Made by a program: the position numbers and the translations under genes. Below are positions 18,775 through 29,833 of a DNA stretch of 32,515 bases, in pieces (within the stretch, counting starts at the first letter, position 1; every line of letters starts with the position of its first letter). This stretch comes from Thermoflexus sp. (GTDB lineage: Bacteria > Chloroflexota > Anaerolineae > Aggregatilineales > Aggregatilineaceae). The stretch lies in contig DYGW01000015.1 of NCBI GenBank assembly GCA_020724485.1, forward strand, positions 1-32,515, written 5' to 3'. Below the pieces are notes generated by a model. That model did no database searches and had not been told where the DNA came from. It worked only from the letters and a program-made list of their open reading frames with translations.

Positions 18775-19635
18775 TTACGCATACTCTGCCGCGACCGGCT
18801 GCAATGTCCGCCCGCCCCGCTCATTCTCGACGAAATGCGCGGCGGCGATCTGCGTGTCGTGCTGGAAGATGAGCAGCCCGCCGCTGTCCAGCGCCCACTG
18901 CTGCCAGCGCCGCTTCGTCTCCAGCGTGACCAGCGGCTCGACATCGTAGGCGGTCATCCAGGCCAGCCGCTCAAAGTGGACGGCGTAGCTGGCCAGGTCG
19001 GCGACGAAGAGCGCGGACTGCCCGCCGCTCTCGAACAGCACGGATTGGTGGCCGGGCGTGTGGCCGGGCGTGACGACGGCCCGCACGCCGGGGAGCAGCG
19101 TCGTGTCGCCGTCCAACAGGCGAAGCTGCCCAGGCTCGTGCAGCGGGACGTAGTTGTCTGGGAAGTAGGTGGCGCGCGTGCGCTCGTTGGGGTGCATGGC
19201 GTCCTCGAATTCGCGGCGCTGGACGACATACTCGGCGTTGGGGAAGGTGGCGACGATCGCCCCGCTCGGCGCGACGTGCGTGTTGCCCGCGCAGTGATCG
19301 GCGTGCAGGTGCGTGTTGATCACCATGTCCACGTCCGCCGGGGCGACACCCAGCCGGGCCAGCCCGTCGAGCAGGGTGCCGCGTGGATGCTCCAACCCCC
19401 ACAGATCGGCCATGCGGCGGTTGAGCTTGTCGCCCAGGCCGGTGTCCACGACGAGGGTTTTGCCGGCGGCGCGCACTAGCAGGCAGGTGAGGATCATCGG
19501 GACGCGGCTCTGCTCGTCGGGCGGCAGGTAGCGGCTCCACAGGGCGCGCGGCACGAGTCCCCACACGCCGCCGGAGTCGACCCACACGACGCCGTCGCTG
19601 ATCAGGTGAATGTGAATGTCGCCGAGGGTGAACAC
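18775..19635 (-). CDS. MBL-fold metallo-hydrolase
   Basis: Metallo-beta-lactamase-fold hydrolase of the lactonase/glyoxalase-II-like group, 286 aa with a GTG start. The metal motif THLHADH (residues 108-114) keeps H109, H111, D113 and H114. TPGHTPGHQS supplies the next histidine, VADLAS the bridging aspartate, and IFQHDTQ the last histidine. Two catalytic metals, probably zinc, are expected. An AHL lactonase-like role is possible, but the substrate cannot be told from sequence. The signature SGGVWGLVPRALWSRYLPPDE is seen in this group. It heads the run with mutM. GAGG lies about 12 nt upstream of the GTG, so the start is less sure. Confidence 0.88.
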   Translation of the reverse strand: MFTLGDIHIHLISDGVVWVDSGGVWGLVPRALWSRYLPPDEQSRVPMILTCLLVRAAGKTLVVDTGLGDKLNRRMADLWGLEHPRGTLLDGLARLGVAPADVDMVINTHLHADHCAGNTHVAPSGAIVATFPNAEYVVQRREFEDAMHPNERTRATYFPDNYVPLHEPGQLRLLDGDTTLLPGVRAVVTPGHTPGHQSVLFESGGQSALFVADLASYAVHFERLAWMTAYDVEPLVTLETKRRWQQWALDSGGLLIFQHDTQIAAAHFVENERGGRTLQPVAAEYA

Positions 19636-21709: not shown

Positions 21710-24700
21710 TCACGACTCGCCGCTCGCCTCCGCCGCCAGGGGCAGGGTGAAGGTGAAGGTGCTGCCCCGGCTTTCCTCGCTCTCGGCCCATACCTGCCCG
21801 TTATGGGCGTGGACGATCTGCTGAACGTTGTAGAGGCCCAGGCCGCTGCCATCGAAGCGCCCCCGGTGGGCGCGGAAGAATCGCTCGAACAGGAATGGAA
21901 TCTGATCGGCGGGGATGCCGATACCCTCGTCACTGACGGATACGACCGCGCAGTTGCGCGCCGCGTCGCGGGTCACGCGCACGACAATCGCGCCGCCCTG
22001 CGGCGAGAATTTGACGGCGTTGCCGATCAGGTTGTCCAGGGTGCGCGTCAGGCGGTTGTAGTCGCCCTCGACCAGGATGTGCTCGTCGGTGATTTCGGCG
22101 CGAAAGGTCAGGTGCGGGCGGCTGCGGTGGACGACCTGGGCCGAGGCGACGGCCTGAGCGCACAGCTCGCTCACGTTGACGGTGCCCAGTTCCAGCGTCT
22201 CGCGGCTGATCGGCTTGGCGGCCATGATGTCCTGTGTCATGCGCTCAATGGCCTTGCTGCGCCGGATGATCTGGTCGAGCACTTCCTGCTGGTAGGCGGT
22301 CACCGGGCCGATGTCGCCGTCGTGCATCATCCCCGCATACCCATAGACGATCTGCAGCGGGCTGCGCAGGTCGTGGCTCACCTGGTAAACCAATTCCTTG
22401 CGCAGCGCGTCCTGCGTTTGCAGCAGGGCGTTGGCCCTGGCCAGCTCGTCGGCGCGCTCGCGTGCCTCGCGCAGTAGGCGCAGCGTCTCGATGATGGCTG
22501 CGATCTGCCCGCCAGCGATGGTCAGCACGCGCTCGTGATCCGGGGTGAAGGCGTCCGGCTGGGTGCTGTCAATCCCCAGCGAGCCAACAGTCCGCCCGTG
22601 CACGGTGAGCGGCACCACCAGCAACGAGCGGATTTCCGGCACGACCACGCGGAAGTTGGGGTCGGCCTGGGTGTCAGGCACATAAATCACGCGCCCAGTC
22701 GCCACGACTTCGCCGGCCACGTACTCGCCGTACTTGAAGCGAGCCGCGCGGATTTGTTCAGGCGTCAGGTTGGCCCCGGCTAGGGTGACCACCTCGTTGG
22801 TGGCCTCGTCGAGCAGGGCGATGGACGCCGCTGTGCACTGGTACACATCGCGGATGGTCGTCACGACGGCGTTGAGCACGTCGTCAAGCTGTTCCATCTC
22901 GCTCACATGGCGCGCCAGCTCGTGCAGGCCGCTGACTTCGGACAGGCTGCGCTGCAGTGTGAGGGTATAGCGCGCGTTCTCGAAGGCGGTCGCCCCTTGC
23001 AGGCAAAGCAGGTCCAGAATGCGGCGCATGTCGGCGCGGAACACGTGCGGCTCACGGAAGAAGAGCGCCAGCATAGCGAACGTGGTGCCGCCGCGCGCGA
23101 TGGGCACAACCGCCGCTGCGCGTCCGAGCCAGTCCTCGCCCACTGCGGCGAGGAGGGTCGGTTCGCGGGCGATGTCTTCCACGAAGATTGGCTCAGAGGT
23201 GCTCTGCACGCGCGCGCTGAGCGCGACGGGCGCGGCAACGTGGGCGCGCTCCGCGTCATTGACGGGGGCGGCTTTGCCCCGGCGCGGGCAATGCCACTCG
23301 GTGGCCTCCCACGGTTGCCCTGGGCTGAGCAACAGGTGTGTGTCGTCTGGCGCGAATAGCTCGGCGGCGGCGTTCGTCACCAGGCGGGCCACTGCTTGCG
23401 GGTTCTGCACGGCGGCCAGTTCCAGGCTCATCTTGTGCAGGGTTTCGAGGGCGTGCAGGCGCTCGGCGGTCTGGTCGTAAAGCTGGGCGTTGCGCACGGC
23501 TACGGCGATAGTCCCGGCGATGGTCTCCAGCAGGTCAATATCGTCCTGGGTGTAGCTGTGCGGCTCGTAGCTTTGCACACTGATCACGCCGACGATCTCA
23601 TCCTGCACCAGCAGCGGCATCATCAGCACGCTGCGCGGCATCTCGTCCTGGATGATGATCTCCGGCGGCAGTGGCTCGTTCTCAGTGTCGTGGAGGATCA
23701 GCGGGCGGCGCGTGCGCAGCACCAGCCCGGTGATCCCTTCGTCCGCGCCCTGGAACTCGTCGGGGCGGCGCTGCCCGAAATCGTAGGAGCCGACGATGTG
23801 CACAACCTGGGCCTCGGCATCCAGCAGGCCGATGAAGAAGGTCGAGGCGTCCATGAGCCGGGCGACGTTCTGGTAGATCATCTCCAGCACGCTGGTCAGG
23901 TCAAGCTGGCTGATAGCCAGGCTGATCTCGTTGAGCACGCGCAGGCGCTCGGCATGGCGCTGCTCGTCCTGGTACTGGCGCGCGTTGTGCAGCGCAGCGG
24001 CGATCTGGATGGCCAGCGCGTGGGCTAGCTCGGCGTCTTCTTGCGAGAACTGGTTTGGGTCGGGGCTGTCAAGGTTTAGCTCGCCCAGGAAGTGCCCGTG
24101 ATGGACGAGCGGCGCGCCCAGCCAACTGCGAATGGGGCGGCGCGAGGGCAGCACCCGCCAGCGCGGATCGGTGAGCGTGTCGTTGATGATCAGCGGCTGG
24201 CTGGTCTCGCGGAGGAAGCGGCTCGTCTCAAGCTCTGGTGGACTCTCGCGGATCAGCGAGCGATCGCGCTCGATGGCCTCGTTGTGCCAGCGCCGCACCT
24301 GAACAGTTTTGTCGCGCTCCAGGAAAAAGATCGCGCAGCTTGAGCACGGGATCAGGCGATGGACTTCACGTAGGACGGTCTCCATCAGCCTCTCGACGTC
24401 GAGCATGGACGAGACGGCGGCCTGGATGGCGTAGAGCGTGTCCAGCCGGTCGCGCACGCGCTCGATGACATGGTGCAGCAGCAAGAACTCGTCGCGGCCT
24501 GGCAGCCGCCAGACCGAGGCGCGGATCGGGATGCACCGGCCTTCGGCGGTCTGCATGGAGAGCGAGAACGTGTCGGACATGCGCTCCGGGTGGGCCAGCA
24601 GCGCGTTCCACCGCTCGCGCACGTACTCGCGGCTCTCCGGCGCGATGAACTCCAGCGCTCTGCCGCCGATAATCGCCTCCAGGGGGTAGCCGTAGTAAGC

Positions 24701-24823
24701 GGCGACGGTCGGCGTGGCGAAGCGGACGATGCCGCTGGCATCCACGACGGCGATAGCGTCAGACAGGCTGCGCGCCGGTTCTTCCGTGCTGAGTGGTGAA
24801 GTGATGGCGCTCTCCTTCTCCAT
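21710..24823 (-). CDS. Sensor histidine kinase with PAS and four GAF domains
   Basis: 1037 aa and no transmembrane helix, so probably cytosolic. Domains in order: PAS (about 17-115, VVDASGIVRFATPTVAAYYGYPLEAIIGG); four GAF domains at about 125-280, 290-440, 450-610 and 615-775; HisKA with the phospho-acceptor H817 in YQVSHDLRSPLQIVYGY; and HATPase_c with DNLIGNAVKFSP (N), DEGIGIP (G1), FERFFRA (F) and GSGLGLYNVQ (G2). All kinase boxes are intact. The GAF domains probably bind small ligands, but none can be named. There is no receiver domain, and no response regulator lies nearby. It starts 6 nt after the small membrane protein gene and closes the cassette headed by a winged-helix protein and a KaiC-like ATPase. 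Confidence 0.95.
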   Translation of the reverse strand: MEKESAITSPLSTEEPARSLSDAIAVVDASGIVRFATPTVAAYYGYPLEAIIGGRALEFIAPESREYVRERWNALLAHPERMSDTFSLSMQTAEGRCIPIRASVWRLPGRDEFLLLHHVIERVRDRLDTLYAIQAAVSSMLDVERLMETVLREVHRLIPCSSCAIFFLERDKTVQVRRWHNEAIERDRSLIRESPPELETSRFLRETSQPLIINDTLTDPRWRVLPSRRPIRSWLGAPLVHHGHFLGELNLDSPDPNQFSQEDAELAHALAIQIAAALHNARQYQDEQRHAERLRVLNEISLAISQLDLTSVLEMIYQNVARLMDASTFFIGLLDAEAQVVHIVGSYDFGQRRPDEFQGADEGITGLVLRTRRPLILHDTENEPLPPEIIIQDEMPRSVLMMPLLVQDEIVGVISVQSYEPHSYTQDDIDLLETIAGTIAVAVRNAQLYDQTAERLHALETLHKMSLELAAVQNPQAVARLVTNAAAELFAPDDTHLLLSPGQPWEATEWHCPRRGKAAPVNDAERAHVAAPVALSARVQSTSEPIFVEDIAREPTLLAAVGEDWLGRAAAVVPIARGGTTFAMLALFFREPHVFRADMRRILDLLCLQGATAFENARYTLTLQRSLSEVSGLHELARHVSEMEQLDDVLNAVVTTIRDVYQCTAASIALLDEATNEVVTLAGANLTPEQIRAARFKYGEYVAGEVVATGRVIYVPDTQADPNFRVVVPEIRSLLVVPLTVHGRTVGSLGIDSTQPDAFTPDHERVLTIAGGQIAAIIETLRLLREARERADELARANALLQTQDALRKELVYQVSHDLRSPLQIVYGYAGMMHDGDIGPVTAYQQEVLDQIIRRSKAIERMTQDIMAAKPISRETLELGTVNVSELCAQAVASAQVVHRSRPHLTFRAEITDEHILVEGDYNRLTRTLDNLIGNAVKFSPQGGAIVVRVTRDAARNCAVVSVSDEGIGIPADQIPFLFERFFRAHRGRFDGSGLGLYNVQQIVHAHNGQVWAESEESRGSTFTFTLPLAAEASGES

Positions 24824-24829
24824 CGTGCG

Positions 24830-25189
24830 TCAACCTCGCGAGCGTGGCGGTGTTCCCCGCGCTTCCTGACCCCGCACCAGCCAGCCCCAATAGCGCCAGG
24901 CGACCACCACCGCCAGCGTGACCGCCGCCGCCAGCGGCAGGTCGTGGGCCAGCGCCCATGCCGAGCCGCCTCCCGTCGCACGTTGTTCGGACGCGGTGAG
25001 GCCAACAGCCAGAAGCCGGACAACCAGCGGCGGCAGCAGCAGCACGAGGGCGGCGTAAAAGCCCCGGTAGAGCGGTGGGCGGCCCATGACCTGGCCGAAC
25101 CGGCGGCTGATCTGGGCCAGCACCCACAGGGCCAGCATCAGCCCCAAGGGGGCCGTCGCGCTTGCCAGGACAGCCAGATCGCCCAACAT
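24830..25189 (-). CDS. Small membrane protein, three helices, unknown function
   Basis: 119 aa with hydrophobic segments at about 3-27, 43-64 and 82-104, ending in a basic tail. It has no recognised family. Its stop is 6 nt before the kinase start, and the kinase ribosome site lies inside its 3' end, which supports co-translation with the kinase. With the 97-aa protein upstream it may supply a membrane partner for the soluble kinase or the KaiC-like protein. That role is inference. Confidence 0.65.
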   Translation of the reverse strand: MLGDLAVLASATAPLGLMLALWVLAQISRRFGQVMGRPPLYRGFYAALVLLLPPLVVRLLAVGLTASEQRATGGGSAWALAHDLPLAAAVTLAVVVAWRYWGWLVRGQEARGTPPRSRG

Positions 25190-25234
25190 GACCGCGACGC
25201 GCTCCGGCGGGCGCGCTTCAGAAGCCGTTTGATA

Positions 25235-25330
25235 ACCTCACCCCCCGGCCCCCTCCATAGACGGAGAGGGGGAGTCATTTCGCGGTTAAGTCCCCTCTCC
25301 GCGTGTGGAGAGGGGATTTAGGGGTGAGGT
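25235..25330. repeat. Inverted-repeat element with ACCTCACCCC ends, copy B (96 bp), inside the cassette
   Basis: ACCTCACCCC (25235-25244) and GGGGTGAGGT (25321-25330) are exact inverse repeats. Inside is a perfect 10-bp hairpin, TCCCCTCTCC (25291-25300) with GGAGAGGGGA (25307-25316) around a 6-nt loop. A CCCCTCC/GGAGAGGGG pair lies to its left. It fills the 155-bp gap between the two small membrane-protein genes and could lower transcription across the cassette. Confidence 0.75.
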
Positions 25331-25344
25331 AAACCGCAGTTCAC

Positions 25345-25638
25345 TCAGCGCCCGCGTATCATCAGCCGGTAAATGTGTATGCACAGCGCGCCCGTGATCG
25401 CGCCCCCGGCGGCAGCGAGCAGATCGGCCAGCGCGTCGCCGATAAGCTGGTCGCGCACTGTCTGGCGGATGGGGGCGCCGGCGAGCACGGCGATAGCCAG
25501 CGCGAAGAGGAGATAGTGGGTTCGCTCGCCGGAGAGCCGTTGATAGAAACGCGCAATAAGCGCGAGCAGTACCAGGAGTGCGCTCACGCCCAACCAGGTG
25601 TACAGGGTCACGATCTGGTGGACAGTGATGCTGCCCAT
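25345..25638 (-). CDS. Small membrane protein, three helices, unknown function
   Basis: 97 aa with hydrophobic segments at about 8-30, 41-57 and 70-90, joined by short charged loops (ARFYQRLSGERTH, IRQTVRDQLIG). It has no recognised family. GAGGTGAGG precedes the ATG. It follows the KaiC-like gene by 33 nt on the same strand. A strong reading frame with a good site, plus conserved-looking gene order, supports a real gene. The product could tether cassette proteins to the membrane. Confidence 0.65.
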   Translation of the reverse strand: MGSITVHQIVTLYTWLGVSALLVLLALIARFYQRLSGERTHYLLFALAIAVLAGAPIRQTVRDQLIGDALADLLAAAGGAITGALCIHIYRLMIRGR

Positions 25639-25671
25639 GCGACCCTCACCTCTGCCGCGCCTGCCTGGCCC

Positions 25672-26451
25672 TCACTTCTTCCCAGGGGTCAGAAAGGCGG
25701 CGGCGAACGCTTCAGTGTGCGTCATGACCGGTGTGCCACTCATAATACCGTGAGTGCCCGCAAAGCGCGACCGTACTTCCAGCCCGCGCGCGGTGATGGC
25801 GTACTGGCGGATGTCGGTCGCGTGGCCACTGCCGCGCTGTTTGAGCACCAGCAGCGCCTTGTGCACGGCGCTCTCAATCTCGACATAGCGCAGCAGCAGG
25901 TACGAGTCTACTACATAGGCTAGGTCGTCGTCGCCCTCGCTCGTCTCACCCAGCAGGGCGGGGTTCTCGCGGGTGAGCACGGCAGTCAGCCCCATGCGCT
26001 TGAGGGCGTTGATTAGCTCGAACCCCAGCAGGCGTAGCTCGACGGGGTCGGCGGCCAGACGCTCGAAGTGACTCAGGCTATCCACGACCACCCGCCGCGC
26101 GCCGATCTGCTCGATCAGCGTCTCCAGCCGCCCGCTGGTGCGGCGCACGTCGGCGAGCGTCACTTCGGGGCTGGTCTGGATCACGCGCAGCCGCCCGGCG
26201 GCCTGGTGCGCGGCGAAATCCCAGCCGAAGTTGGCCGCGTCGCGGATCAGGTGTTCGGGGAATTCCTCGAAGGTCAGGATGATGCCCGGCTCGCCGTGCG
26301 CGGTGATGCCGTGCTCGATGAACTGCATGGCGAGTGTGCTTTTGCCGGTGCCCGGCGCGCCCTCGACCAGGTTGGCAGTCCCCGGCAAGAAGCCGCCGGC
26401 GAGCATCTCGTCCAGCCCGGCGATGCCCGTAGGGACGCGGGGCGTGATCAT
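25672..26451 (-). CDS. KaiC/Rad55-like RecA-superfamily ATPase
   Basis: Single-domain KaiC-like ATPase of 259 aa. Walker A is GAPGTGKST (residues 31-39, K37), the paired glutamates ILTFEEFPEHL (E62-E63) take the place of the KaiC catalytic glutamates, and Walker B is RRVVVDSLSHF (D124). RVPTGIAGLDEMLAGGFLPG is the characteristic start of the family. Its ATG overlaps the stop of the winged-helix gene by ATGA. Relatives act in clock-like or signalling assemblies; a clock role is not supported here because no KaiA or KaiB is present. It is second in the cassette ending with the PAS-GAF kinase. Confidence 0.93.
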   Translation of the reverse strand: MITPRVPTGIAGLDEMLAGGFLPGTANLVEGAPGTGKSTLAMQFIEHGITAHGEPGIILTFEEFPEHLIRDAANFGWDFAAHQAAGRLRVIQTSPEVTLADVRRTSGRLETLIEQIGARRVVVDSLSHFERLAADPVELRLLGFELINALKRMGLTAVLTRENPALLGETSEGDDDLAYVVDSYLLLRYVEIESAVHKALLVLKQRGSGHATDIRQYAITARGLEVRSRFAGTHGIMSGTPVMTHTEAFAAAFLTPGKK

Positions 26452-26840
26452 GGCCGCTCCCTTTCCCGACGCAGGCTGCGGATGACGTGGTAGATCGCTT
26501 TGATGCGGAACTGGCGGTCGTCGCAGGCCCGCATGAAGCTATCGAGCAGGGCGACCGTGTTGTTGTCGGCGGTGAGCGTATAGACGCGCAGATCGGCCAG
26601 GGTCTCCACTTCCAGCACCCCGGCCTGGGCCAGTTGGCGTAGCTCCGGCTCGACTACGCGCACATCGCGCCCGGTGTAGCGGGCGAGATTCTCGGCGGTA
26701 TCGGCGGTGTGCGGGTTGGCGTGGAAGAAGCGCACCAAATCCCACTTGATGAAGGTGTTGATGCGCGTGCGCAGCAAGTCTAGCAGGCGCGGATCGATGT
26801 CGTCCATCAAGTGCGCGGCGTCGTCCTGGGCGTCTGCCAT
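26448..26840 (-). CDS. Winged-helix protein paired with a KaiC-like ATPase
   Basis: About 130 aa. The segment LLDLLRTRINTFIKWDLVRFFHANPHTADTAENLARYTGRD, followed by VVEPELRQLAQAGVLEVE and LRVYTLTADN, reads as a winged helix-turn-helix fold with a wing. DNA binding or partner binding is likely. The ATG at 26840 follows GAGGGGG; the GTG at 26855 has a poorer site. Its stop overlaps the KaiC-like start by ATGA, so the two are probably translated together. The C terminus (SFMRACDDRQFRIKAIYHVIRSLRRERE) is helical and basic. The role is not established. Confidence 0.85.
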   Translation of the reverse strand: MADAQDDAAHLMDDIDPRLLDLLRTRINTFIKWDLVRFFHANPHTADTAENLARYTGRDVRVVEPELRQLAQAGVLEVETLADLRVYTLTADNNTVALLDSFMRACDDRQFRIKAIYHVIRSLRRERERP

Positions 26841-26902
26841 CCGAGTCCCCCTCACACATGCACCGCTGGCCCTGGGCTAAACGCCTGGGCTTGGCTTCGC
26901 TA

Positions 26903-29833
<2,931 letters not shown>

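Follow-up and report, generated by a model that had tools for sequence, protein, structure and literature searches.

KaiC-family ATPases have been described in several settings besides the cyanobacterial clock. Short non-cyanobacterial KaiC homologues of about 250 amino acids lack the phosphosites and KaiB (Schmelling et al. 2017, PMC5520375). PMC5847659 cites Makarova et al. 2017 for the proposal that archaeal KaiC-like ATPases are signal-transduction hubs, and KaiC-REC fusions occur in Methanosarcinaceae (PMC5847659). ArlH, a KaiC-like protein, binds ATP and acts at the archaellum motor, where its autophosphorylation ends the contact with ArlI (PMC8978795). In Haloferax, the KaiC homologue CirA affects motility and cell shape; CsmR, a regulator, may be modulated by it (PMC13286277).

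The locus described here encodes a winged-helix protein (wH), a KaiC-family ATPase, two membrane proteins of 97 and 119 aa (TM97 and TM119) and a histidine kinase. Its KaiC resembles the short homologues in length and in lacking both phosphosites and KaiB; what it adds to them is the membrane pair and a C-terminal F-x3-F tail, whereas PMC5520375 reports no membrane partners (the word "membrane" does not appear in its text). It shares with the archaeal hubs, as far as the cited account of Makarova et al. 2017 goes, the linkage of a KaiC-family ATPase to signalling proteins, receivers and kinases among them, but differs from that account in being a bacterial single-domain KaiC with the F-x3-F tail, in a fixed unit with two paralogous proteins of three transmembrane (TM) helices. 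ArlH (FlaH), too, is a KaiC-like ATPase of one domain that acts together with membrane components (PMC8978795). However, the cassette KaiC scored 49.5 bits where the NCBIfam ArlH family requires 215, no archaellum genes adjoin it and its membrane partners are different, and identity with ArlH or an archaellum component was rejected. The closest solved structures by sequence are those of cyanobacterial KaiC, whose Walker A motif and catalytic glutamate pair are kept; unlike KaiC of the KaiABC system, the cassette protein has one domain rather than two, replaced phosphosites, membrane partners and no KaiB. A literature search found no paper on this gene set, and an earlier notice of the archaeal membrane pair in Makarova et al. 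2017 is possible.

The features found in the window, i.e. the whole 32,515-nt stretch of DNA analysed here, are listed in Table 1. The original prediction had described a tight run of five genes on one strand. All five open reading frames were found on the minus strand, and the ATGA overlap of wH and KaiC (wH stop ending at 26448, KaiC start at 26451), the 33-nt spacing from KaiC to TM97 and the 6-nt spacing from TM119 to the kinase were each exact. The order is tight at these three junctions but not between TM97 and TM119, which lie 155 nt apart. Nor does the run consist of five genes: secA, left out earlier, is separated from the wH start codon by 62 nt on the upstream side and belongs to the same-strand run, although it is probably context and not a functional part of the cassette. 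Alignment favoured the ATG at 26840 as the wH start over the in-frame GTG at 26855, which is a possible alternative. A promoter and terminator scan of the window gave signal at chance level only.

Table 1. Position, strand and basis of assignment of the cassette features and secA in the window.
Feature	Position	Strand	Basis
Histidine kinase, PAS-4xGAF-HisKA-HATPase, 1037 aa	21710..24823	(-)	Domain profiles
TM119, 119-aa membrane protein, three predicted TM helices, conserved WRYWGWL C-terminal motif	24830..25189	(-)	ORF and TM prediction
Dispersed palindromic repeat between TM97 and TM119	25225..25335	no strand	Matching places in the genome
TM97, 97-aa membrane protein, three predicted TM helices	25345..25638	(-)	ORF and TM prediction
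KaiC-family ATPase, single domain, 259 aa, C-terminal F-x3-F tail	25672..26451	(-)	PF06745 and PDB profile
wH, winged-helix protein, 130 aa	26448..26840	(-)	ORF and start alignment
secA, constant upstream neighbour in Chloroflexota	26903..29833	(-)	Context

The 155-nt gap is due to the insertion of the dispersed palindromic repeat, an element of about 110 bp that matches 41 places in its own genome, itself included, about 8 of which are long. The gap folds far better than shuffled sequences (z -5.6). The closest relative, a genome of the same genus (G004), has no repeat and a TM97-TM119 gap of about 28 nt; the wide gap in the window is a secondary insertion.

The predicted KaiC-like protein was confirmed as a member of the KaiC family, matching PF06745 with 169.2 bits against a curated cut-off of 26.6 and the PDB KaiC profile with an E-value of 1.2e-102. 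Among 19 KaiC sequences, the Walker A motif (GxxGxGK) and the first catalytic glutamate were invariant, and the second glutamate was kept in more than 90%, in agreement with the motifs first noticed. The positions which we take to be the paired Ser/Thr phosphosites of the clock protein's CII domain are occupied in the cassette KaiC by an invariant Ala and by Tyr/Phe. Profile search found KaiB (PF07689) in none of the 22 genomes with the cassette, and over cut-off in 7 relatives. In five genomes of the same taxonomic order (G025, G034, G041, G048 and G060), KaiB lies near a tandem-domain KaiC of about 500-640 aa and the cassette KaiC is missing; the tandem-domain KaiC of the KaiB genomes and the cassette KaiC did not co-occur in any of the 61 genomes surveyed in that order. 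The window's own genome carries a second KaiC paralogue (G000:C205:3254-3955; 44% identity), which has neither a membrane pair nor the tail.

The kinase was matched by PAS_4, four GAF stretches, HisKA (34.5 bits) and HATPase_c (105.5 bits), the latter two over cut-off, and its PAS-4xGAF architecture is as first described. It thus has both HisKA and HATPase_c of a two-component kinase, and no response regulator was found among the window's cassette genes, again as predicted; searching the genome of the window for the receiver that belongs to it returned generic matches only. The AlphaFold2 model of wH (pLDDT 86) had as its best structural match CadC (1u2w, E 3.9e-4), a winged helix-turn-helix protein of ArsR/SmtB type. 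Because the model resembles CadC and SmtB (about 14% identity to CadC), a transcriptional output of wH is plausible. Against PF25212 (HVO_A0114), the window wH scored 23.4 bits, below the cut-off of 27.6, though most of the wH homologues match it weakly (24 of 28 at E up to 0.1). Ten Bacillota loci (L157, L161, L162, L166-L169, L174, L176 and L179) carry a KaiC-like gene and, immediately after it, a segment weakly matching the cassette wH profile (19-32 bits).

Neither TM97 nor TM119 matched any Pfam or NCBIfam family over cut-off, and weak matches were scattered. Both have the same charge pattern, which suggests an N-out/C-in topology with a basic cytosolic loop. TM119 was modelled by AlphaFold2 as three long helices with a mean pLDDT of 90, and a fold search of this model against the PDB gave no usable relative (best E 1.4). 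The profiles of the two proteins align end to end with a probability of 88% and an E-value of 3.4e-6, a score that three-helix membrane proteins can reach by composition alone. In one genome (G036), the two are fused in a single 206-aa open reading frame (L092:7139-7756) beside wH and secA. TM97 and TM119 are probably paralogues by these sequence comparisons, and a heteromer of paralogues would be the simplest reading. Scanning 400 Chloroflexota genomes with the TM97 profile gave at least 5 matches, at least 3 of them strong; the first pass scored 12 candidates per genome, and this prevalence is a lower bound. Short membrane proteins are easily overlooked, and where TM97 or TM119 is recorded as absent the figures are likewise lower bounds.

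The recurrence of the cassette was surveyed in the 61 genomes of the order, followed by tblastn of the fetched loci; many of the genomes used here and below are metagenome-assembled genomes (MAGs). The order wH-KaiC-TM97-TM119 was found in all 22 genomes with a KaiC orthologue, which span five families, and the kinase followed TM119 in 21 of them. secA lay upstream wherever the contig reached. The genes overlap or sit a few nucleotides apart in many loci. The downstream flank usually consists of adenosine deaminase-like and MBL-fold genes (L053, L079-L084, L111-L125); the window's MBL-fold gene at 18775-19635 is related to this flank, and other genes lie between it and the cassette. The KaiC orthologue never occurred without wH and both membrane proteins, but the converse fails. 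G011 has wH-TM97-TM119-kinase without KaiC; G018, G031, G041 and G054 have wH-TM97-TM119, as does G036 with its fused pair; G045 and G057 have TM97-TM119-kinase without KaiC or wH; G023, G025, G044, G056 and G060 have TM97-TM119 without the other three; and G006, G010, G016 and G017 have wH-kinase without KaiC or the membrane proteins. As the pair persists in several genomes that lack KaiC, it has another partner or some role that does not depend on KaiC. In G001, the first wH codons are joined directly to mid-kinase sequence (L211:1-210), which removes the rest of wH, KaiC, TM97, TM119 and the N-terminus of the kinase. This fits a single deletion of the block, and could also be an assembly fault, since the G001 assembly is fragmented. 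The scar is flanked by C-rich palindromes similar to the repeat in the window.

Beyond the order, wH-KaiC-TM97-TM119 was present in 30 of 30 Chloroflexota loci from a named-genome scan and an HMM survey, including Thermoflexus sp. and Thermoflexales MAGs and partly the same genomes as above; the kinase was missing in about half of these wider loci. In 31 of 31 Fibrobacterota loci inspected, taken from 40 of 150 genomes with TM119, at least one receiver-domain protein, and often two, came next after KaiC-TM97-TM119. Candidatus Methanoperedens carries a tandem-domain KaiC with TM97 and TM119, and a receiver and a kinase lie downstream in some loci. Within its archaeal phylum, TM119 was found in 7 of 247 genomes, with TM97 and KaiC adjacent in 6 of the 7, and in some archaea a receiver-domain protein comes next after TM119. 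The receivers of Fibrobacterota and some archaea indicate that linkage of KaiC to a receiver is the more widely distributed pattern. The recurrence of the cassette order is well beyond chance. It extends across families and, for the core, across phyla and domains, which is the outcome that the original prediction had named as support for a functional unit. Two further loci, from candidate division FCPU426 and an unclassified bacterium (L158, L159), encode a tandem KaiC of about 630 aa with a C-terminal receiver domain, and in one Methanoperedens locus the tandem KaiC is immediately preceded by a small protein that looks by eye like Roadblock/LC7 (L171:8855-9229).

The F-x3-F motif was found in the short C-terminal tail of 53 of 53 distinct KaiCs linked to the TM pair, compared with 0 of 37 unlinked ones. 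These counts take in related sequences, and a p-value computed for the association overstates the case because of this relatedness. The tail also occurred in another 32 rows of linked KaiCs, partly repeats of the same loci, and was absent from the tandem KaiCs and KaiC paralogues of the order. In the KaiC tree, the Chloroflexota cassette clade (support 98/88) stands beside Fibrobacterota in a joint clade (100/97), the archaeal linked KaiCs are placed elsewhere and the Chloroflexota paralogue without membrane genes forms a separate clade; the motif is thus kept in separate bacterial and archaeal clades.

These findings, all of them sequence-based, bear on how the parts are connected. KaiC of the cassette type was always accompanied by both membrane proteins, which makes a strong case, from gene content, for a KaiC-membrane pair link. 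The original prediction had also suggested that the membrane proteins connect the cytosolic kinase to an output formed by KaiC and wH. The link between KaiC and the membrane proteins stood up well, and no KaiC/wH pair without membrane proteins, the arrangement that would have spoken against the cassette as a unit, was seen in the surveyed genomes. A bridge to the kinase agrees with the place of the kinase directly after TM119 in nearly all cassette genomes of the order, and with the two genomes in which the pair and the kinase persist without KaiC or wH. However, about half of the Chloroflexota loci in the wider survey have no kinase, Fibrobacterota have receivers in its place, and four genomes keep wH and kinase without the pair, so that this wiring is unlikely. 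As the kinase is optional, and wH-kinase and TM97-TM119 each occur separately, the membrane proteins are better called partners of KaiC.

A purely inherited gene order, in which a stable secA-adenosine deaminase region of Chloroflexota is passed on and the genes do not act together, seems quite unlikely for the whole cassette. The secA and adenosine deaminase/MBL flanks are fixed across families, and wH, the TM pair and the kinase are lost separately, as this reading would expect. In several Fibrobacterota loci, by contrast, the flanks are carbamoyltransferase and uvrA. Since the flanks differ between lineages, the KaiC-TM97-TM119 triad is kept together independently of its surroundings there and in archaea. 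Inheritance could still hold for wH and the kinase, whose tie to KaiC is confined to Chloroflexota and there to a single fixed position behind secA. Judged by their distribution, these two genes are modular, lineage-specific additions, whose link to KaiC rests on gene order inside Chloroflexota.

The conserved site also raises the question of whether TM97 and TM119 are accessory proteins of Sec-dependent export, with KaiC as a secondary passenger, and the adjacency of secA, TM97 and TM119 is indeed kept even where KaiC, wH and the kinase are missing. In Fibrobacterota and archaea, however, the pair stays with KaiC and receivers among other neighbours, and these contexts disfavour the idea, which we consider improbable. 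To our knowledge, archaea have no SecA, which also counts against it. Least probable of all, a reduced Kai-type timekeeper with kinase output as in cyanobacteria would agree with the KaiC-family ATPase beside a histidine kinase and with KaiC proteins as the closest solved structures, but this clock or circadian oscillator was rejected because the protein has a single domain, KaiB is absent from all 22 cassette genomes and both clock phosphosites are replaced.

We therefore favour, with a probability of about 0.58, a reading in which the KaiC ATPase is held at the membrane by TM97 and TM119 through its tail and is coupled to the kinase and wH here and to receivers elsewhere. The core would be the three-gene unit KaiC-TM97-TM119. 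Single-domain KaiC would form a hexameric ring, which the two paralogous three-TM proteins, joined in a complex, would hold against the membrane's inner face, and by analogy the conserved F-x3-F tail may be the docking contact. ATP binding and hydrolysis by KaiC would set the state of the membrane complex, its nucleotide state acting, again by analogy, as the switch. Two-component parts would be coupled to this complex, namely the PAS-4xGAF histidine kinase in the window and receiver-domain proteins in Fibrobacterota and archaea, and the ArsR-like wH is a likely output or co-regulator in Chloroflexota; this direction of the signal within the cassette is presumed. The wider proposal, that TM97 and TM119 are an undescribed two-subunit membrane receptor or anchor that serves KaiC-family ATPases exclusively, which they would bind via F-x3-F, common to Chloroflexota, Fibrobacterota and archaea with lineage-specific outputs (wH or receiver), we hold to be somewhat better than an even chance.

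These observations bear on the role of KaiC relatives outside clocks and archaella. A membrane pair that travels with one subset of KaiC across two domains of life is a concrete and testable partner, and the F-x3-F tail, which in our survey marked exactly the pair-linked subset, provides a sequence marker for it. If the favoured reading is true, two small families of proteins, unnamed in any profile library, would gain a function. The recurrence of the KaiC-TM97-TM119 pairing in unrelated bacteria and in archaea suggests an undescribed means by which KaiC switches are attached to the cell membrane.
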